This document shows positions 46,142-55,667 of a DNA stretch of 64,000 nucleotides, piece by piece. Positions within the stretch are counted from its first letter, which is position 1; the number at the start of each line of letters is the position of its first letter. The translations under genes and the position numbers were made by a program. The notes under the pieces were generated by a model. That model was not told where the DNA came from. It worked only from the letters and a program-made list of their open reading frames with translations, and did no database searches. Origin of the DNA: Acetoanaerobium noterae (GTDB taxonomy: Bacteria > Bacillota > Clostridia > Peptostreptococcales > Filifactoraceae); NCBI RefSeq assembly GCF_900168025.1, contig NZ_FUYN01000008.1, positions 1 to 64,000 on the forward strand, read 5' to 3'.

Positions 46142-47017
46142 TTAAGCAGCTTTAATGTCAGCTGGCTTAGATGCAGCTTTGAACATTGTCATAGAAGTAT
46201 AGAAGATAACTCCTATTACTAACCATCTAAGAATATCAAGAGGTAGTGACTTAACGATATATGCTGCTATAAATACTCCAACAATTCCAAGTACTGCTAT
46301 TGCTAAAGAAGCTTTTCTGTTATACGCGCCTTCTCTTACGAACTTAACAGATGCAACTGGCATTAAGAATGCACAAGATCCCATCATTATAGGGAAAGCA
46401 ACTGCTGGGCTCATTCCAAGGAAATAAACTAGAGCCATACAAGGAGCATAAAGTCCGATTCCAAGTGTCATAAGAGCTCCAAGGATGAAGTTACCAACTA
46501 TAGCTATAACAAGTTTCACACCAGTAAGTCCTATAGCATCTCCGCCTCCAGGCATCCATCCCATTTGTCCAGCAAGCATTAAGAATGCTGTAACAAAAAG
46601 TGCGATTGCCATTGCAAGCTGAATCTTTTTCTCAGGAAGTCCAGAAACGAATCCAGCTCCTAACCAAGCACCAATAGTAGCTGCAGCTAGCATACCAATA
46701 AGGGTTACTGGCTCAACTTCGATAACTGTGATGAAGATAAATGCCTCTGCAACAACTGGCCATGTACAAGAAACGTTTAATGTTCCAGGAAGAACTCTAT
46801 CATGTATTTGTCTAAAAGCTTTAAGTAAAGCGGTAGTAGGTGCAAAGCTTCCTATACCTAGTGTATCAAAAAAGTTTGTTATAAATCCGATAATACCTGC
46901 TGTTAAGAAATTAGTCTCTTTTTCTAGATTCTCTTTGTGTTTTGCAAGGTCCTTAACAAACTCAAAGCTGAACCATGCCGTCAGTGCGCCTAAAACTCCT
47001 AATATCCCTGTAATCAT
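46142..47017 (-). CDS. TauE/SafE (TSUP) family permease
   Basis: A 291-residue protein with about eight hydrophobic helices and the repeated glycine-rich TSUP pattern, e.g. AAATIGAWLGAGFVSGLPEKKIQLAMAIALF. Family members move sulfite, sulfonates or organic anions. It begins 61 bp after prdF with no terminator between, so it is probably the last gene of the prd transcript. A role in moving proline, 5-aminovalerate or a sulfur/selenium species is only inference. Confidence 0.8.
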   Translation of the reverse strand: MITGILGVLGALTAWFSFEFVKDLAKHKENLEKETNFLTAGIIGFITNFFDTLGIGSFAPTTALLKAFRQIHDRVLPGTLNVSCTWPVVAEAFIFITVIEVEPVTLIGMLAAATIGAWLGAGFVSGLPEKKIQLAMAIALFVTAFLMLAGQMGWMPGGGDAIGLTGVKLVIAIVGNFILGALMTLGIGLYAPCMALVYFLGMSPAVAFPIMMGSCAFLMPVASVKFVREGAYNRKASLAIAVLGIVGVFIAAYIVKSLPLDILRWLVIGVIFYTSMTMFKAASKPADIKAA

Positions 47018-47078: not shown

Positions 47079-48086
47079 TTATACTGTAAATCCATACTTA
47101 AGTGGATCTTCTGGGTCAATTACAAAATGATTGAATCCAGTTATATATGCTCCACCTGTAATTTCTGGGATTATAGCATCAAATTCTCCAACTTTTGTTT
47201 CTTCTAAAACTCTTCCTTTGAACATTGTTCCAGTGATGCTTTCGTATACAAATTTTTCATCTATCTTAAGATGTCCTTTTTTGTAAAGTGTTGCAAGCTT
47301 AGCACTAGTTCCAGTTCCACAAGGAGAACGGTCTACTTGCCCTTGTCCGAAGATAACAACGTTTTTGTATGTAGCTTCAGGATGAGATGGCTCATCGTAG
47401 ATTTCTACTAAATCAACAGTTTTGATATGCTCTAGCTCTGGATGTTGAACTTTGATTTTTTCATTTATTAAATCTCTTATTTCTATACCTAACTTTTTAA
47501 GTACATCAACTTGGCTAGTTTCTACTTTAACTCCTAGCTCTTTTGCATGTATAATAGCAAAGAAGCTTCCGCCAAAAGAAATGTCAAATGTAATAGTCTT
47601 GTTTAAAGAAGGTACTTCTAATGTAGCATCTTCCATATATAAAAATGAAGGAACGTTAGTTATAGATACTTCTTTTACTTTTTCATTTTCTACCATAACT
47701 TTAGCTTTGATAAGTCCAGCAGGCGCTTCCATGTTGATATTAGTAACAGGCTCTACCATTTCTACCATTCCTGTTTCAACTGCTACAGTAGCCGCTCCAA
47801 TTGAACCATGACCGCACATATTTAAGTATCCGCCGCCATCCATAAATATAATTCCAAAATCAGCTTCTTTATTATTTGAGCTAGTTATAATAGAACCAAA
47901 CATATCATTATGTCCTCTTGGCTCATGCATTAAAGCTGTTCTAACGTAGTCTAGGTTATCTTCAAGATATTTTTTCTTGTCAGCCATTGTTTCCCCATTA
48001 ATCTGTGGAATACCTCCTACAACTATTCTAGTAGGTTCTCCCATAGTATGTGAATCTATAGCGTGAATTCCTTTAGAAAACTTCAT
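47079..48086 (-). CDS. prdF: Proline racemase PrdF
   Basis: A 335-residue cofactor-independent racemase that turns L-proline into D-proline, the substrate of the reductase. The two catalytic cysteines are C91 (NMCGHGS) and C256 (RSPCGTGTSA). Other conserved parts are IDSHTMGEPTRIV and MHEPRGHNDMFG. The ATG overlaps the prdE stop as ATGA. Hydroxyproline epimerases share this fold, but the operon points to proline. Confidence 0.96.
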   Translation of the reverse strand: MKFSKGIHAIDSHTMGEPTRIVVGGIPQINGETMADKKKYLEDNLDYVRTALMHEPRGHNDMFGSIITSSNNKEADFGIIFMDGGGYLNMCGHGSIGAATVAVETGMVEMVEPVTNINMEAPAGLIKAKVMVENEKVKEVSITNVPSFLYMEDATLEVPSLNKTITFDISFGGSFFAIIHAKELGVKVETSQVDVLKKLGIEIRDLINEKIKVQHPELEHIKTVDLVEIYDEPSHPEATYKNVVIFGQGQVDRSPCGTGTSAKLATLYKKGHLKIDEKFVYESITGTMFKGRVLEETKVGEFDAIIPEITGGAYITGFNHFVIDPEDPLKYGFTV

Positions 48087-48553
48087 CTTCTTGCTCCCTT
48101 CATTTTTAGTTTCAAAAACGCTAAGGCTTTCTTAGCATCTAATTTTTCAACTGTGTTTTCTCCCACAGTTTGGGTTTCTATACCTGCCTTAGACTTATTA
48201 AAGTCTACTATAGTATCCATATATTGATTTTCCACTACGAATTTTGCTTGAGTTCCTATAAAGCTAAGCCCTACAACAGGAATTCCTCTTATACCAATTT
48301 CCTCGATAGTGTTGGCATAATCAACATGGCTGTTTCCCCATCCGTCAACTGAGATAATAGTTCCATCTGCTCGCATAGATTCTAGCCATACAGCTACTCT
48401 CTTGCCGACATATTCTTTTTCTTCGTTGCTTTGAGGTGTTCCAACCACTATGATTCCCATTAAATCAATATCTTCATCATTCGATACTACATCTAAAAGC
48501 GGATCTCTAAAATGGTGCAAAGTAGTCTCTTTTGTAGATGGTCCTACACCCAT
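48083..48553 (-). CDS. prdE: Proline reductase-associated protein PrdE
   Basis: A 156-residue protein similar to the C-terminal, pyruvoyl-bearing part of PrdA. Its MGVGPSTKETTLHHFRDPLLDVV aligns with CIGPASKENSRHYWREPLVIEVM of PrdA, and GWGNSHVDYANTIEEIGIRGIPVVGLSF with GFGNNHIDFASHHEQVGMRGIPVVGMSF. The residue matching the PrdA pyruvoyl precursor Cys is replaced by the start of the protein, so no pyruvoyl group can form. The ATG at 48553 has better spacing to AAGGTG than one six bases upstream. Function in the complex is unproven. Confidence 0.88.
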   Translation of the reverse strand: MGVGPSTKETTLHHFRDPLLDVVSNDEDIDLMGIIVVGTPQSNEEKEYVGKRVAVWLESMRADGTIISVDGWGNSHVDYANTIEEIGIRGIPVVGLSFIGTQAKFVVENQYMDTIVDFNKSKAGIETQTVGENTVEKLDAKKALAFLKLKMKGARR

Positions 48554-48568
48554 TATCATTCACCTTCT

Positions 48569-49333
48569 TTAAGTCATAGCCCTAATAGCACCATCTCTGT
48601 ATTCATTAGGACTTAAAATGATTGGCATATTGCCCATATCTATAATACTTCTGCCTCCAGCTACAGAGCTTGAACTAGCTGGCAAAATAAAATTGTCATA
48701 CATAGCTCCTTGGCCTGCAACTTGCTTAACAATTGCCACCTTATAGCCATTTTTTCTAATTTTGTCGTAAAATTTGTACTTTTCTGTACATAACTTCGAG
48801 TCCATAGCCTTTAAGTACATTCTTACATCCTCTAAAAAATCGTCACAAGCTTTGTGACATTCTATAATTGCTTCTCTAACTACGCCTTTACCCTCATATA
48901 AAACTAAATCAAATGAAATAATGTAATCGTTTTCAGAAGGCGTACCTGGTCTGCCTAATTTTAACCTTTCAGCTAAAATCCCTTCAGATGAACCAAATTC
49001 AGCAACTTGAGTGCCTTCCTCATCGACTCCAGTTATCATTACATAAGCCCCAGTAATAGTATGGGTAATACCTTCGCCTAAATTTCCAAGCACCTTTACG
49101 GATATAGGCAAAATATCCATAATACTGTTAGTCCAAATATTATGTTCATTAGGCTTAATAATTTTTACGGAAATCTCTTTAATAGATGGATATTTAGTTA
49201 TAATATTGTCAATCTTAGATAAAGAAAAACTTAAGCAACCGTCATTAATTTTTGCTTTTTCTGCAAATTCTACTTTATCTACATGATAAGATCTAATGAC
49301 AAGTTTTCTTAAATCAATTTCGTTTGTCAGCAT
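48569..49333 (-). CDS. prdD: Proline reductase-associated protein PrdD
   Basis: A 254-residue protein similar to PrdA from about residue 175 up to the cleavage site, for example TGVDEEGTQVAEFGSSEG beside TGTDEDGVQIGEFGSSEG, and IVKQVAGQGAMYDNFILP beside IIKEIMGQGAMHDNLILP. Its last residues, DGAIRAMT, align with DGGIHALT of PrdA, so the chain stops exactly before the PrdA pyruvoyl-forming cysteine. It lacks the PrdA N-terminal domain and Ala/Pro linker. The ATG at 49333 follows AAGGTG. prdE starts 15 bp downstream. Confidence 0.88.
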   Translation of the reverse strand: MLTNEIDLRKLVIRSYHVDKVEFAEKAKINDGCLSFSLSKIDNIITKYPSIKEISVKIIKPNEHNIWTNSIMDILPISVKVLGNLGEGITHTITGAYVMITGVDEEGTQVAEFGSSEGILAERLKLGRPGTPSENDYIISFDLVLYEGKGVVREAIIECHKACDDFLEDVRMYLKAMDSKLCTEKYKFYDKIRKNGYKVAIVKQVAGQGAMYDNFILPASSSSVAGGRSIIDMGNMPIILSPNEYRDGAIRAMT

Positions 49334-49353
49334 ATTATTCACCTTCATTTTTA

Positions 49354-49387
49354 TTCTAAACAAAGGGCATACGCCCTTTGTTTAGAA
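49354..49387 (-). other. Perfect hairpin between prdB and prdD
   Basis: Perfect 15-bp stem TTCTAAACAAAGGGC (49354-49368) and GCCCTTTGTTTAGAA (49373-49387) in the 64-bp gap. There is no proper T run afterwards. It probably protects the prdC-prdA-prdB message 3' end or reduces prdDEF expression. Confidence 0.55.
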
Positions 49388-49397
49388 ATATAATCCA

Positions 49398-50126
49398 TTA
49401 AACCTTTGCTACGTACTCGTAAGGTAGTGGTACTATTTTTCCTGCACTAGGAATCTCAACTAACTGCTTTAGAGAATCTGTACAAATAGCTTTTTGCATT
49501 TCTGGATTATTAGGCTCTCCTGCATTAGCTCCCATAGGAACTAGTGGAGCAACCGCTCTTGGAGTACCATTTTGTCTTACTACTGGTGGTAAAGCTGCTA
49601 TAATTATTGTAGGAATACCCGATTCCTCAATCGCTCTCTGCACTATAACTGCAGAACGATGGCAGGTACCTCAGCCAGCTGTTAGAAGAACAGCATCTAC
49701 TCCAGCTTCTTTAAGTTTTTGTGCGATTTCAGGACCAGTTTCTTCAGTAAACTTTCTTTGGTCTCCTCCACCACCCATGAATCCAACGTTGATAGGTGCT
49801 AAAGCTTTGATAAATCCTTCTTCAGCTAAAGTTCTCATTGGATCTATAGGGAACATACAGTTGATGTCTTTGTTAACATCTCCGTTGTCATATCCTCCGT
49901 GAGATACCATCATATCTTTTACTGATGCATCTCCTGGGATTATTCTGTAAGAGAAATCTCCTGCTAGGTTAAATCTCTTGTCAGATTTTAAATGAACTCC
50001 TGCTGCTGTAACAAGTGCAACAGTCATGTCTTTTAATTCTTTTGTTACTGGCGTCCACACTGGTGGTGGTGTAATAGGTACGTAAATTTCAGATTGTAAT
50101 CCTTTTACTACAGTCAAATCAGACAT
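49398..50126 (-). CDS. prdB: D-proline reductase selenoprotein PrdB
   Basis: The 242-residue selenocysteine subunit of D-proline reductase. An in-frame TGA (49673-49671) splits the frame into 151 and 90 residues. Reading it as selenocysteine gives VLLTAG-U152-GTCHRSAVIVQR, a UxxC redox motif known in this family, and sequence on both sides fits PrdB (SHGGYDNGDVNKDIN before; PRAVAPLVPMGANAGEPNN after). A stem-loop sits immediately downstream. U152 is expected to attack the substrate bound to the PrdA pyruvoyl group. The start overlaps the preceding 86-residue gene by 8 nt. Confidence 0.95.
49631..49673 (-). promoter_or_regulatory. Bacterial SECIS element of prdB
   Basis: On the minus strand, 14 nt after the UGA, TCGTTCTGCA pairs with TGCAGAGAGCGA around a 7-nt loop GTTATAG. 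Position and apical guanine fit SelB recognition. This is a structural reading by eye. Confidence 0.7.
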
Positions 50127-50379
50127 TCATATTCCTCCTTTTATCTTTATTTTTTTGGATATTACTCAAATATTTTTCGTTAACTTCATCACTTAATACT
50201 TCTACAAAACTCATATTCATAGCTACCTCTAAACCAATTTCAAGAGGATAGTCAGTAATAAGCATTCTTTTAGGGACTTTCAGAAAGCCTAACCTTCCTT
50301 TAAAATCTATCGATACAGAACAATCATCAAAATCTACAATGATTCCTTCCATATATATGATTTTGTCTCCATATTTCAT
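50119..50379 (-). CDS. Small conserved protein between prdA and prdB
   Basis: An 86-residue basic protein (MKYGDKIIYMEGIIVDFDDC at the start, a Lys/Arg-rich end). The first half looks like a small beta barrel, including SVSIDFKGRLGFLKVPKRMLI. From memory, proteins of this type (labelled CBO2463/CBO2479) occur in proline reductase clusters of other Clostridia. It overlaps prdB by 8 nt and follows prdA by 30 bp, so it should be made in step with the enzyme. A chaperone, maturation or regulatory role is possible but unsupported. Confidence 0.7.
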   Translation of the reverse strand: MKYGDKIIYMEGIIVDFDDCSVSIDFKGRLGFLKVPKRMLITDYPLEIGLEVAMNMSFVEVLSDEVNEKYLSNIQKNKDKRRNMNV

Positions 50380-50409
50380 ATAATCACCTTTTCATTTTAA
50401 AAGAACGGT

Positions 50410-52299
50410 TTATTTATCTGCCTCATAAATTTCTTTTCTCTTCTTGCTCATTGGTAGAACTTGCTCATTTGGAAGTAAAGTAATTTCTTTTCCAGTTTGC
50501 TCTTCGATTAAATCTACATTGTTTTCTTTAACGTTTTTGTTGAATTTTCTCTCAGCAACTTTTACTTCTTCTTCAGCTATTGCTGCTTTAAGCATAGCAA
50601 CTGCTCTTATAGCATCTTCTGGGCAAAGAGTGTTGTTAGAAAGAATTTCATTTTCTATACCTTGCTCAGATTTATTATTATCTACCATGTATTTCATGTA
50701 TTTGTTTCCAACAACTAGAGCTCCCTGAACAGCACAGAATGACATTCCAACAACTGGAATTCCTCTCATACCAACTTGCTCATGGTGACTAGCAAAGTCT
50801 ATATGGTTGTTTCCGAAACCTTCAGTTGTGATGAAAGCTCCCTCTACATCCATAGTCTCAACTAACATACCTAGTCTTTCTGATACGTAGAATTTCTCAG
50901 CGTTAACCTGAGGAGATCCAACAAATACAACACCTGCTAAGTCAAATTCTTCGTCATTCATAACTTCAATTACTAGAGGCTCTCTCCAGTAATGTCTAGA
51001 GTTTTCTTTTGATGCAGGTCCTATACAAGTAAGTGCATGGATTCCTCCATCTAGTACCTCAAGAGGCGAAAGAACAACTGGAACGTTTCCAAGGTCAACG
51101 TTTGGCTTTGCACCTATTACTCCTACTGGCTCTACAGGAAGGATTAGGTTATCATGCATTGCGCCTTGTCCCATGATTTCTTTGATGATTACAACTTTCT
51201 TCTTGCCAGGTCTTCTGTACTGAGCTAACTCCTCAATTTCAACTACTTCAGAATCATCAAGTTTCTTAAGCGCTTCTCTTATTTCTTGAGTGATGAAATC
51301 AGTTGCTTTATGAGCCGCAAGTGGTCCTGGTCTTTCCATGTTAGTACCAGCTTTTATAGTAACTTGAGTCTTGATAAGGATTTCTCCTTTATCAGGAGCT
51401 CCAGGTCTTCCCCACATGATGTTTGCATCAAGTTCGCCCTCAGATGAACCAAATTCACCGATTTGAACTCCATCTTCGTCAGTTCCTGTAACCATGATTA
51501 TAGCTCCATCGATAACACGAGTAACACCTTGTCCTATTTTTCCGTCGCCTTCTTTAGTAGCTATAGGCTGAACGTCCATAATAGTTTCGCTGTACTTGCC
51601 GTAATCAGCTGGAGTAATGATTTCCACTTTGATATCTGTAACTAGGTTGCTTACTTTTACAGCATCTTCGCAGATATTCTCTCTAATGTAGATAGTGTTA
51701 TTTTCAATTTTTGTCTCAGGTCCAAATTCTACCTTCTCAATTTTGAAATGCTTCTTTTGAAGTGTTCTTATAAGCTTTGGCTCTCCTGCTGGTGCTACTA
51801 CTTGCTCTGTAGCTGCTGTTACTGGCATAGCTACTCCTGCTGGTGCTGCCGCTGCTGGAGCAACTACTCCCATTTGTCCTGCAATTGTTAAAGGAATTTC
51901 TAGATTGATATCTTTTCCTTCTCCAATATGAATCTTAAGCATTGAACCAGTTACATTTGCTACTGGCATAGCAGCTGGTGCTGCCTCTACTGCTGGTGCT
52001 GCTACTGGCGCTGAAGTTTCTTGCTTAGGTGCTTCTTCACTTACAGAATTTACTCCCTCAAGTAGTTCTGGAGTAAGTGGAGTAAGTGAATCAGCTGTTT
52101 TAACTAATTTCGCTCCTAAAACCTCTCCTATTTTAAGGCAGTTAGCAGGAATAGTTAATAAACCTGAATCCTCCAAGTCACCAAATATAGCTGGATCTTC
52201 TAAATTACTAGGTCCAATTACTGTACCCTCTTCTGCACGACAACATAAAACGGCTAAATCATTAGCATGCTCTTTCGCACTTTCTAAAGTTATTGACAC
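50410..52299 (-). CDS. prdA: D-proline reductase proprotein PrdA
   Basis: A 629-residue proprotein. In C. sticklandii PrdA is cleaved to about 45- and 23-kDa chains, the second carrying an N-terminal pyruvoyl group made from cysteine. The matching site here is DGGIHALT-C425-IGPASKEN. An N-terminal domain (1-85) and a long Ala/Pro/Val-rich linker (about 85-170) precede the conserved core with DGVQIGEFGSSEGELDANIM and MGQGAMHDNLILP. The start is GTG, eight bases after AGGAGG. prdC lies 32 bp upstream. Catalysis also needs PrdB: D-proline is reduced to 5-aminovalerate. Confidence 0.96.
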   Translation of the reverse strand: MSITLESAKEHANDLAVLCCRAEEGTVIGPSNLEDPAIFGDLEDSGLLTIPANCLKIGEVLGAKLVKTADSLTPLTPELLEGVNSVSEEAPKQETSAPVAAPAVEAAPAAMPVANVTGSMLKIHIGEGKDINLEIPLTIAGQMGVVAPAAAAPAGVAMPVTAATEQVVAPAGEPKLIRTLQKKHFKIEKVEFGPETKIENNTIYIRENICEDAVKVSNLVTDIKVEIITPADYGKYSETIMDVQPIATKEGDGKIGQGVTRVIDGAIIMVTGTDEDGVQIGEFGSSEGELDANIMWGRPGAPDKGEILIKTQVTIKAGTNMERPGPLAAHKATDFITQEIREALKKLDDSEVVEIEELAQYRRPGKKKVVIIKEIMGQGAMHDNLILPVEPVGVIGAKPNVDLGNVPVVLSPLEVLDGGIHALTCIGPASKENSRHYWREPLVIEVMNDEEFDLAGVVFVGSPQVNAEKFYVSERLGMLVETMDVEGAFITTEGFGNNHIDFASHHEQVGMRGIPVVGMSFCAVQGALVVGNKYMKYMVDNNKSEQGIENEILSNNTLCPEDAIRAVAMLKAAIAEEEVKVAERKFNKNVKENNVDLIEEQTGKEITLLPNEQVLPMSKKRKEIYEADK

Positions 52300-52331: not shown

Positions 52332-53618
52332 TTATTTATCAGTTCTTCTAACAAGTCTTTGTCCTGCTGCTCTAAGTACATGGTCTGTACTATGATATGT
52401 TGGAACTCCTAACCTAGGAGCTACTCCCATAACGGTATTCGTTCAGTCTCCGCAAGTACCTGTCAAAAGAATTTGTATACCTTTTTTCTTCATGCTGATT
52501 ACTTTTTCAGCTTGACCAGGACATATTCCTGGGTTATCGCAGCGGTATCTTCCATCTACCTCTACCATTCTCTTACATTTCTCTACAGCTACAACCTCTG
52601 CACCCATTTCTTTGGCGATTTCTCTTAGTCTGTCTTCTTGAGCTCCGCATTCGCAAGCCAGCAGACCAACTTTTCTCTCGTCATGTACAAAAGGCATAGC
52701 TACTAAAATTCCACCTGTTGTTTTTGTTATCGGAGCATCTTCTTCTACATGTCTTCCAGTAAAAGGTCCTCCCATAACAATTTCACCGTGAGGATTCATA
52801 TATCCACCACAAAGGTCTATATATTTTTTTACACTCTCACCTACAGGCACGTCCATAAATACTTTTCCATCAGTAGCATCCATTACTCTTCCAGCAACTG
52901 TTATATCTTTTGTGATATAAGGCTTTCTAAGCTCAATTGCATTTACAATATGCTTTAATGTCTCTACATTTTGAATTACAGCATTTGCAGCCTTTGGTAG
53001 CTGTCCTGGCTCTAGAAGAATTCCTAAGATATCTCTTACTATAGCTCTTTCATCTCCAGCAGGATACATATCTGGAAGAATCTTAACTTCTATATCAGGC
53101 TCAAGCTCGCAAGCTGTTTTAAGAATTCTTAGAGCTTTTTTGTGCTTTGCTTTCATCGCTATGTATGCCTTAGATGCATTTGTGATTTCTTTTACGTATT
53201 TAAGACCTCTTATTATAACCTGAGGATCTTCTTCCATCAGCTTTATATTGTGACCTAGTACAGGTTCACACTCTGCTCCGTTGGCAATAACATATCCACC
53301 TTCAAGGTTTACATTAAGCTTTACGTGAGTAGGAAAGCCTGCCCCTCCTGAGCCAACTATTCCAGCTTCCTGGATAGCTTCAATGTGGGTATTTGTATCT
53401 TTAATCTTTACGAATTCATCTGGTTGGTTCTCATCTGCTTCAATAATGATTGCAGTTTCATTTACAGCTTTTACAACACCGTAAACGCTTGAGTGAAGAT
53501 TTGCTCCTAAACCATTTGGCTTAGCAATCAATTCTCCTTTTTGAACTTTTTGACCCGCCTCAACTATACTTTGGCATGGTGCGCCTACATGTTGTTTTAA
53601 AAGTAAAACAATATCCAT
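52332..53618 (-). CDS. prdC: Selenoprotein PrdC, RnfC-like electron-transfer protein
   Basis: A 428-residue protein if the in-frame TGA (52445-52443) is read as selenocysteine: LLTGTCGD-U392-TNTVMGVAP, then 36 more residues to a TAA. The CxxU motif and the conserved tail support readthrough. The main part resembles RnfC: EAGIVGSGGAGFPTHVKLN, an NADH/flavin-type fold, and Cys-containing motifs CECGAQED and CDNPGICPGQ. It is thought to pass electrons to the reductase. The ATG at 53618 is seven bases after AGGAGG. First gene of the prd operon behind a sigma-54 promoter. Confidence 0.93.
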
Positions 53619-53912: not shown

Positions 53913-55667
53913 CTACAGGTACTGATTTAAGTCATAAAATTTGATTTTATAGTAGAGAGTGCTTCTAGGAATATCCAGCAGCTTAGCTGCTTGTTGCTTG
54001 TTATTTCCACACTCTTTCATTGCATCATGAATTGCTTTTATTTCAGTTTTTCTTATAAGGTCTGTTAAGCTCTTTTCATTTTTTATGTTTATGGTTTTAT
54101 CGTCCTTGTTATTTATATATTCAGGAAGAGTATCTATTTGAATCTCATTATTTTTAGAAAAAACAACTAAATGCTCTACCATATTTTTAAGCTCTCTTAT
54201 ATTTCCTGGCCAGCTGTAGTTCATGAGCATATTTAATATTTCAGGAGAAATATCGGGAACCTTCATATGATTTTCTCTACAAAACTCTTCAATAAAAAGC
54301 TTAACAAAAAGTGGAACGTCTTCTATCCTGTCACTTAAACTAGGAAGCTTTATATTTACAACATTCAATCTATAATAAAGGTCCTCTCTAAAAGTGCCCG
54401 CCTTTACCATATCTTCTAAATTTCTATGAGTAGCGGAAATCACTCTTACATCAAGGGATATACTTTTATCTCCCCCTACTCTCATAAGCTGTCTTTCTTG
54501 AAGAACTCTAAGAAGCTTCGCCTGCATATGAAGAGGCATGTCACCTATTTCATCAAGGAAAAGCGTCCCTCCATTTGCTATCTCAATTTTTCCTATTTTC
54601 CCTTTGCTAAGTGCACCCGTAAATGCACCACTTTCATAGCCGAACATCTCACTTTCAAAAAGGCTCTCAGGTATAGCACTACAATTTATAGCTACAAAAG
54701 CTCCTTCTCTACCACTAGACTGATGTATAGCCCTTGCAAATACTTCTTTACCAGTACCACTTTCGCCGCTTATAAGAACACTACTGGTCGTCGATGCAAC
54801 CTGATAGGCTCTATCTATAGTATGAGTCATTATTTTACTTTTCCCAACTATATTGCCAAAGGAAAATTTATCTTCGTTCATCTTTCTAACTTCTACTTGA
54901 AGATAGTCTAACTTCTCCTTAGTGAACTCGAGCTCTCTAGATAGGTTTGTAATCTCTGACACATCTCTCTCTGTAGATACTACGCCAATTAGTTTTCCAT
55001 TTTTAATAAGCGGAAGAGCACTTATATTTACATAAGTATTTTTTCTAGGGCTGTGGATGATGTTTTCCACTGGCTCTTTGCTTTTTAGCACATCTAATAA
55101 CAAAGCCGTAGGGAAAAATTCCTCAAGCTTTTTACCAATAATTTCTGATTTTTTTATTCCGTAAAGCTTTTCTGATCCTCTTCCCCAAATACAAACCGTT
55201 CCTTTATTATCTATTATGCATATGCCTTCATGAACGTTATCCCATAATAGCTCATACAAATCTTCATTGGCTTGAATTTTAGGATATAGCTTATACACTA
55301 TATCTTGAGTTCTAAGTACCCCTACTAGCTTTTCATCATCTAAAATAAATACTCTATCTACTTGATTTTCCCTCATTATGTCCTTTGCCATGAGCACTGT
55401 ATCTTCTACATTAAGATAAAAGGGCTTATTAGCCCTGATATCGAATAGTTTTTTTTCTGGAAAGCTCTGACTTAATGAAATTTTTATTATATCGTCAAAT
55501 TTTATATAGCCTGTGAGTTTTTCATGGTGTCTTACTATTACCTCTTTGAGATTATTAAGAGCTATATGCTCTACGCACCTTCTAAGAGATATGTCTGAGT
55601 CAAACACTATAAAATCCTTTGACATTATATCCTTGACTTTAAGACGTTTAGTTTGGTTAAAAAACAT
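53913..55667 (-). CDS. prdR: Sigma-54-dependent activator PrdR
   Basis: A 584-residue enhancer-binding protein. Two CBS domains (about 10-130) and a PAS domain (about 140-240, ICIIDNKGTVCIWGRGSEKLYGIKKSEIIGK) precede the AAA+ domain (about 270-500). The latter has Walker A GESGTGKE, the sigma-54-contacting GAFTGA and Walker B GGTLFLDEIGD. A Fis-type helix-turn-helix ends the protein (NKQQAAKLLDIPRSTLYYKI). In C. difficile PrdR activates prd genes when proline is present. It lies downstream of prdX by 34 bp. Confidence 0.95.
   Translation of the reverse strand: MFFNQTKRLKVKDIMSKDFIVFDSDISLRRCVEHIALNNLKEVIVRHHEKLTGYIKFDDIIKISLSQSFPEKKLFDIRANKPFYLNVEDTVLMAKDIMRENQVDRVFILDDEKLVGVLRTQDIVYKLYPKIQANEDLYELLWDNVHEGICIIDNKGTVCIWGRGSEKLYGIKKSEIIGKKLEEFFPTALLLDVLKSKEPVENIIHSPRKNTYVNISALPLIKNGKLIGVVSTERDVSEITNLSRELEFTKEKLDYLQVEVRKMNEDKFSFGNIVGKSKIMTHTIDRAYQVASTTSSVLISGESGTGKEVFARAIHQSSGREGAFVAINCSAIPESLFESEMFGYESGAFTGALSKGKIGKIEIANGGTLFLDEIGDMPLHMQAKLLRVLQERQLMRVGGDKSISLDVRVISATHRNLEDMVKAGTFREDLYYRLNVVNIKLPSLSDRIEDVPLFVKLFIEEFCRENHMKVPDISPEILNMLMNYSWPGNIRELKNMVEHLVVFSKNNEIQIDTLPEYINNKDDKTINIKNEKSLTDLIRKTEIKAIHDAMKECGNNKQQAAKLLDIPRSTLYYKIKFYDLNQYL

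Follow-up and report, generated by a model that had tools for sequence, protein, structure and literature searches.

Self-cleaving pyruvoyl enzymes and catalytically dead paralogues that activate their active relatives are each known, whereas the literature searched yielded no description of a dead paralogue that gene structure keeps in the cut state, still open when its halves are fused back to front. The subject here is the prdD–prdE gene pair, which lies in the proline-reductase cluster of a 64,000-nucleotide stretch of Acetoanaerobium noterae DNA (contig NZ_FUYN01000008.1, positions 1 to 64,000; hereafter the window). Among the described systems, the glycine reductase proprotein GrdE gains a Cys-derived pyruvoyl group through proprotein cleavage, and a labelled Clostridioides difficile PrdA peptide (amino acids 421–427) with a Cys-derived carbonyl group has been mapped by mass spectrometry (PMC9908766). 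The trypanosome AdoMetDC prozyme, itself dead and uncut, is the paralogue of a pyruvoyl enzyme and activates that enzyme about 1000-fold (PMC5201418). The homology of PrdD and PrdE to PrdA was already published in 2010, in a paper that also refers to chains derived from GrdE in support of a protein-stabilizing role (PMC3091704). Relative to that homology, the exact ends and the circular permutation reported below appear to be new; in the searched literature, which includes PMC6311696, PMC8557875, PMC10564238, PMC6615313 and PMC10298544 and outside which most subscription papers fall, no paper was found on the exact ends, the Met-Gly start, the reversed PrdE–PrdD (ED) fusions or ED in second prd clusters.

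From comparison of sequences, we show that PrdD and PrdE (together, PrdDE) are homologous to PrdA, that their ends coincide exactly with the PrdA cut, that the cleavable Cys is lost, that reversed fusions leave the cut open, and that PrdA and the permuted proteins each form one clade. PrdDE resembles PrdA (TIGR04480) over the whole of both chains, and its chains end where those of the mature, cleaved enzyme do, but it lacks the cleavable Cys and the N-terminal domain and is encoded by two genes or by one reversed fusion. The PF09338 family is common to GrdE and PrdDE; GrdE, however, is a single cleaved protein with the Cys and is distant in sequence (23% for PrdA against its own-genome relative G000:C4:87502). 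By analogy, PrdDE would work like the AdoMetDC prozyme, to whose family it is not assigned, each being a dead, unprocessed paralogue of a pyruvoyl enzyme; prdA and prdD–prdE share one cluster in the same genome, 'dead' being judged by the missing Cys. The prozyme is one uncut chain whose pairing with its enzyme is experimental, whereas PrdDE is pre-cut by gene layout and its pairing is putative.

The junction in the window involves the following features:

50410..52299, minus strand: prdA, D-proline reductase proprotein, 629 residues, GTG start (TIGR04480, 1027.1 bits, cut-off 700)
51025..51030, minus strand: codons of the prdA cleavage and pyruvoyl site (Thr424, 51028-51030; Cys425, 51025-51027)
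48569..49333, minus strand: prdD, pseudo-beta chain (TIGR04482, 372.4 bits, cut-off 320, model positions 1-246 of 246; scored on the open reading frame from TTG 49363, the likely start being ATG 49333 after AAGGTG)
48561..48568, minus strand: AGAAGGTG, ribosome-binding-like site upstream of prdE, recognized by eye in the sequence
48083..48553, minus strand: prdE, pseudo-alpha chain from the second ATG (TIGR04480 positions 414-566; starts compared with relatives)

At its cleavage site, Thr424/Cys425, the PrdA of the window reads GGIHALT/CIGPASKE. The prdD tail encodes GAIRAMT followed directly by a stop (final codon 48572-48574, TAA 48569-48571), so that the PrdD chain closes on the residue equivalent by homology to Thr424 of PrdA. 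Two in-frame ATGs are available to prdE, at 48557-48559 (MIMGVG) and 48551-48553 (MGVG), and AGAAGGTG lies 1 base from the first and 7 bases from the second. Because this spacing is better for the second ATG and relatives use that position, MGVGPSTKE is the correct PrdE start, as the preliminary description of this DNA had assumed when it set that start against CIGPASKE. Residue 2 of PrdE is Gly and aligns with the pyruvoyl position, Cys425, of PrdA. Methionine aminopeptidase removes Met before Gly, so mature PrdE is expected to start with Gly at the PrdA pyruvoyl position.

Profile searches gave the same boundary. On the TIGR04480 model, PrdD covers positions 164-413 and PrdE positions 414-566, adjacent and with zero overlap, and both chains together are 39% identical to PrdA 178-573, the whole of each being homologous. 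These profile positions and the window sequence bear out the preliminary match of the PrdD end AIRAMT to GIHALT just before C425 of PrdA. Both chains fall short of the PrdA family cut-off of 700 bits (245.5 for PrdD, 193.9 for PrdE) and exceed the Pfam PF09338 (Gly_reductase) gathering cut-off of 22.2 bits (29.3 and 41.3, respectively), and PrdD matches its own family, TIGR04482, over the full model. The Cys found in PrdA at the cleavage site is missing from PrdE and ED (Gly in the window copy). Nor does a single chain run through the cut, as it does in a self-cleaving proprotein: PrdD stops and PrdE starts there, and ED leaves the cut open.

To assess how exact and how general this arrangement is, we searched the genome itself and 148 relatives, together with 391 genomes drawn from the class and 398 from the phylum, in draws that overlap; one genome scan scored at most four candidates per genome. 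A first set comprised 96 loci with strong matches, together with the window. A second set comprised 46 loci (L131-L176) from named genome contigs with fused proteins, found with two short peptide patterns and not exhaustive. Duplicates were taken out of the second set only and the first includes close relatives, so that pooled counts are not independent. In the first set, 81/81 PrdD or ED chains end exactly one residue before the cut position, and a start codon (79 ATG, 5 GTG, 1 TTG) stands directly before the Gly at the Cys position in 85/85 PrdE or ED chains with this region intact. In the second set, exact ends were found for 24/24 ED and 14/14 PrdD, and exact starts for 15/15 PrdE and 22/24 ED. 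Pooled, the ends are exact in 119/119 and the starts in 122/124, the two misses being ED genes with one-base frameshifts near the start (L143 and L147). The preliminary estimate that gene and cleavage boundaries agree 'within a residue or two' is thereby tightened to exact agreement, which is more than chance would give. Five PrdE-class fragments stand outside the first-set start count, namely remnants of a second PrdE copy (PrdE2) at L059, L066 and L067 and contig-end PrdA tails at L101 and L103; L176, where just the terminal portion of a PrdD-type chain is present, enters the end count alone.

The residues at the junction follow the same division. The position of Cys425 is occupied by Gly in 85/85 PrdE or ED chains scored in the first set, which confirms the earlier statement that the catalytic cysteine is gone; in the second set 38/39 matched, which is not an independent count because the search pattern itself required Gly. 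By contrast, Cys directly follows the cut in 130/130 PrdA proteins, preceded by Thr in 125 and by Cys in 5. From a conserved Asp-Gly to the PrdD-type C-terminus there are 8 residues in 119/119 chains. The last residue of PrdD is T, V, D, Q, H or N and that of ED is L, S, V or I; because this residue varies while the length is constant, it is the length itself that is maintained. The far end of PrdE is looser, lying 22 to 37 residues past a conserved Gly in nine lengths (standard deviation 1.8; 86 of 97 PrdE, those matching the pattern). A PrdD/PrdE boundary elsewhere and a catalytic residue in PrdE were both looked for across the loci, and neither was found. As to the other apparent exceptions, the L039 PrdA escaped the regular expression and also has Thr-Cys at the cut; the 'PrdD' of L159 is taken to be a PrdA truncated where the locus stops; and at L041, which shows a lost PrdD stop, prdD is almost wholly deleted and prdE internally deleted.

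In all, 32 ED genes, the frameshifted L143 and L147 among them, encode PrdE and then PrdD in one chain, a circular permutation of roughly 410-425 residues from the Met-Gly start. The start lies at the pyruvoyl position and the C-terminus one residue before the cut, so that neither end is tied at the pseudo-cleavage site, whereas a linker that varies between the proteins connects the far ends (alignment of 8). Hosts include Peptostreptococcus, Muricomes, Extibacter, Clostridium drakei, Anaerotignum, Gemella, Lachnoanaerobaculum, Peptoniphilus, Aedoeadaptatus, Mogibacterium, Asaccharospora, Lutispora, Sedimentibacter, a Desulfovibrio, metagenome-assembled genomes of Deltaproteobacteria and a Spirochaetia bacterium, among others. 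ED occupies the prdD–prdE slot after prdB in many clusters and precedes prdC or prdA in some. It is also present in second prd clusters of some genomes; PMC3091704 gives prdD and prdE as absent from the second Clostridium botulinum set. No uncut, natural-order PrdD–PrdE fusion without the Cys occurs among the open reading frames classified. In 85 adjacent prdD–prdE pairs, the median gap is 13 bases (range 8 to 110) and 41/85 are in the same frame; a plain fusion would require the loss of intervening stop codons, and a reversed fusion would require duplication and loss.

Phylogenetic analysis grouped the permuted proteins together. In a tree of 87 rows (28 of 72 PrdD–PrdE units, 28 PrdA and 31 ED, with L143 and L147 left out and the near-identical L160 and L161 both included), PrdA forms one clade (support 100/99) and ED another (100/100), nested in split PrdDE. 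A wider, quick tree recovered the same groups with support of 93 for PrdA and 100 for 8 ED. Because ED forms one clade, a single permutation can account for all of its members.

In the clusters of L035, L036, L037, L038, L095, L096, L099 and L100, the PrdB near ED has Cys in place of selenocysteine (Sec; TGGCGTCHR). At the ED loci of the Desulfovibrio, two Deltaproteobacteria and the Spirochaetia bacterium, prdB falls into two open reading frames, as a Sec codon would cause.

Conservation was compared between 87 of 94 PrdA (L039, L123-L126, L128 and L130 left out) and 72 concatenated PrdD–PrdE rows, from which the L099 PrdD was omitted as it has no adjacent PrdE. Of 129 columns invariant in PrdA, 65 are kept in PrdDE at 90% or more, 24 have switched to a different residue that is itself at least 80% conserved, and the other 40 are relaxed. 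Switches complete at 100% include Cys425 to Gly, Arg435 to Leu, A429S and E440D. PrdA and PrdDE are cleanly separated by 29 positions; of these, 11 fall in the 400-440 stretch that spans the junction, where they are conserved in their own right. Because so many PrdA-invariant columns are kept or have switched to another conserved residue, PrdDE is not decaying but constrained, and strongly so at the cut; the site looks remodelled and still under selection.

Structures were predicted with AlphaFold as single chains, from alignments of 60 rows for ED (8 ED, 26 PrdE and 26 PrdD) and 39 for PrdA. One ED protein gave a confident single fold, with a predicted local distance difference test score (pLDDT) of 91.6 and a predicted template modelling score (pTM) of 0.91; the PrdA model was fair (pLDDT 81.6, pTM 0.76). 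By eye, from secondary structure, the order of elements is alike within each half of the two models. Foldseek returned no match at E ≤ 0.001 for either model, an absence from the fold list that is not evidence. A VIA fold comparison gave a best Z of 4.5 for ED and of 11.8 for PrdA, the latter mainly from the C-terminal half to common alpha/beta folds; none of the fold searches yielded an informative homologue. A sequence search of the PDB with PrdA as the only query found no convincing relative, its two hits (E 0.06 and 0.81) being judged chance.

These observations are consistent with a reading in which PrdDE is a catalytically dead PrdA core, minus the N-terminal domain, that is encoded in the already-cleaved state. 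PrdA cuts itself at Thr424/Cys425 to make its pyruvoyl group, and PrdD corresponds to the chain before the cut and PrdE to the chain after it. In PrdE, Gly replaces the Cys, and once the start Met has been removed in the ordinary way this Gly would be the free N-terminus, located at the pyruvoyl position. The two chains may fold together as one PrdA-like core, a heterodimer, that acts on PrdA, PrdB or both as a non-catalytic subunit or activator. We consider the chances evenly balanced that PrdDE is such a pseudo-subunit, possibly acting on PrdA or PrdB as the prozyme acts on its enzyme; PrdA and PrdB are its inferred binding partners. The position of ED in the prdD–prdE slot after prdB in many clusters counts in favour of this reading. 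More tentatively, and a shade below an even balance, the open ends may be a working feature, in which the free N-terminal Gly of PrdE, together with the carboxylate at the PrdD C-terminus, makes up a pseudo-active site that is always 'cut' and must stay open for fit to and action on PrdA or PrdB; gene layout would have replaced self-cleavage, and fusion would be allowed only by circular permutation. That the open ends matter is suggested because even fused PrdE and PrdD are joined back to front with the cut left open, and the same property strengthens the preliminary idea of a mimic of mature PrdA chains.

Several observations weigh against the pseudo-subunit reading. The main text of PMC9908766 describes the enzyme as PrdA, PrdB and PrdC and leaves PrdD and PrdE unnamed. 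Of 14 genomes whose fetched PrdA locus lacks the pair, 13 have no PrdD, PrdE or ED match elsewhere; these are 93-100% complete and keep the Thr-Cys site in PrdA, and in the fourteenth, G132, both PrdD and PrdE were found elsewhere. Because 13 PrdA-bearing genomes lack it, PrdDE is accessory. In G017, almost the whole of prdD has been lost along with part of prdE, and prdA and prdB are retained. Over 41 loci, retained out of 49, the distance matrices of PrdDE and PrdA agree with r of 0.89, but without the divergent family f128 (38 loci) this value is 0.70, lower than the 0.81 between PrdDE and PrdF, and no specific partner emerges. Finally, residues 1-6 of the ED model have pLDDT below 50, so the N-terminal Gly is not placed by that model.

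The sharing of a cluster with prdA and prdB, the likeness to mature PrdA chains and the omission of PrdD and PrdE from the enzyme parts in that main text would also suit a maturation factor, one that binds the PrdA proprotein or unassembled PrdB briefly, promotes the Cys425 cut or assembly, and leaves. A product-like PrdDE could keep the precursor in a cut-ready shape, and an indirect, protein-stabilizing role was proposed in PMC3091704. However, the 13 near-complete genomes that retain a Thr-Cys PrdA without PrdDE, and the persistence of prdA and prdB in G017, speak against such a role, which we regard as rather unlikely. The preliminary interpretation is thus upheld in part: a non-catalytic PrdA-core paralogue split at the cleavage site and resembling the mature state stands, whereas the role it suggested as chaperone or regulator of maturation is putative, and PrdA is retained without PrdDE in those 13 genomes. 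Decidedly unlikely, in our judgement, is that the ends say nothing of function and record a single split at a natural fold break, kept since other breaks or closure spoil folding. One event can explain all split pairs in the trees, and a gene would be split most easily where the chain is naturally broken. Against simple structural tolerance, the terminal residue of PrdD and ED varies at fixed length, the far termini are free to be joined in ED, conservation is strong in the N-terminal stretch of PrdE (the three substitutions after Cys425 being complete), and an uncut pseudo-pyruvoyl protein does exist in the prozyme (PMC5201418). The conserved separating positions in 400-440 could instead form a remodelled substrate pocket that senses proline or the redox state and signals it to a partner such as PrdR or PrdC, and PrdDE distances follow PrdF and PrdC as well as PrdA; but no sensor or DNA-binding family scored above cut-off (PrdE gives a weak DeoR match, 23.5 bits against 420) and no direct sign of a ligand was seen, which leaves a ligand sensor very improbable. 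Given this pre-cut layout, the role of PrdDE in Stickland proline reduction, kept in many but not all prdA clusters examined, becomes directly testable, and the reversed ED fusions offer ready single-chain forms for structure work.

Loci that depart from the usual layout were also noted. Five pair-less loci (L107-L110 and L124) hold prdR, prdC, prdA, prdB and prdF. PrdA proteins of loci without PrdDE carry 1 to 7 of the 29 PrdDE-like residues (16 rows), compared with a mean of 0.24 and a maximum of 2 in the others; we do not take this as a signal, as the columns were chosen on the comparison group and are biased, and the high scorers (L123-L126, L128 and L130) mostly branch deep. At L125 (4628-6298), L126 (4480-6174) and L128 (5201-6859), PrdA-like genes whose products lack the N-terminal domain and extend about 140-150 residues further at the C-terminus adjoin a Sec PrdB, and no prdC was seen there; these products may form a separate reductase subfamily. 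The PrdA N-terminal domain alone is encoded just upstream of prdA at L043 (7758-8210), L050 (7816-8244), L051 (7822-8349), L058 (7644-8138) and L063 (1770-2237). In genus g40, PrdE2 follows PrdE (L061, 6495-7016; L063, 6659-7201; L065, 3213-3728) and is decaying in some members, those with the remnants named above; a GTG reading gives the same Met-Gly start. A lone prdE that adjoins no prdD lies beside the prdA of the second prd set at L099, L145, L156 and L159; the single split prdD of L099 is over 12 kb distant, and L159 and L099 appear to be one and the same place. At L116 (4802-6059), a prdD–prdE pair has no prdA or prdB within the 11 kb fetched and is flanked, by eye, by a pullulanase-like gene and tryptophan-synthesis-like genes; a normal cluster occurs elsewhere in that genome (L115).

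The proline-reductase cluster of the window is complete and runs on the minus strand as prdR, prdC, prdA, a small CBO2463-domain gene, prdB, prdD, prdE and prdF. The remaining features are:

53913..55667, minus strand: prdR, sigma-54-dependent activator (NF041552, 797.6 bits, cut-off 795)
52332..53618, minus strand: prdC, electron-transfer selenoprotein (TIGR04481, 600.1 bits, cut-off 490, scored on the part before TGA)
50119..50379, minus strand: CBO2463/CBO2479-domain protein, 86 residues, in the prdA/prdB interval (NF041553, 92.1 bits, cut-off 50)
49398..50126, minus strand: prdB, selenoprotein, 242 residues, TGA read as Sec152 (TIGR04483, 421.5 bits, cut-off 300)
47079..48086, minus strand: prdF, proline racemase, overlapping the prdE end by 4 bases (NF010576, 605.4 bits, cut-off 556)
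46142-47017: gene after prdF, membrane-permease-like by eye, with no NCBIfam match

An in-frame TGA at 52443-52445 ends the plain open reading frame of prdC, and read-through gives 428 residues with Sec392 within a Cys-x-x-Sec motif. Clostridium sticklandii has since been renamed Acetoanaerobium sticklandii. The Sec positions and lengths found here for PrdB (152 of 242) and PrdC (392 of 428) are the values tabulated for C. sticklandii in PMC3091704.

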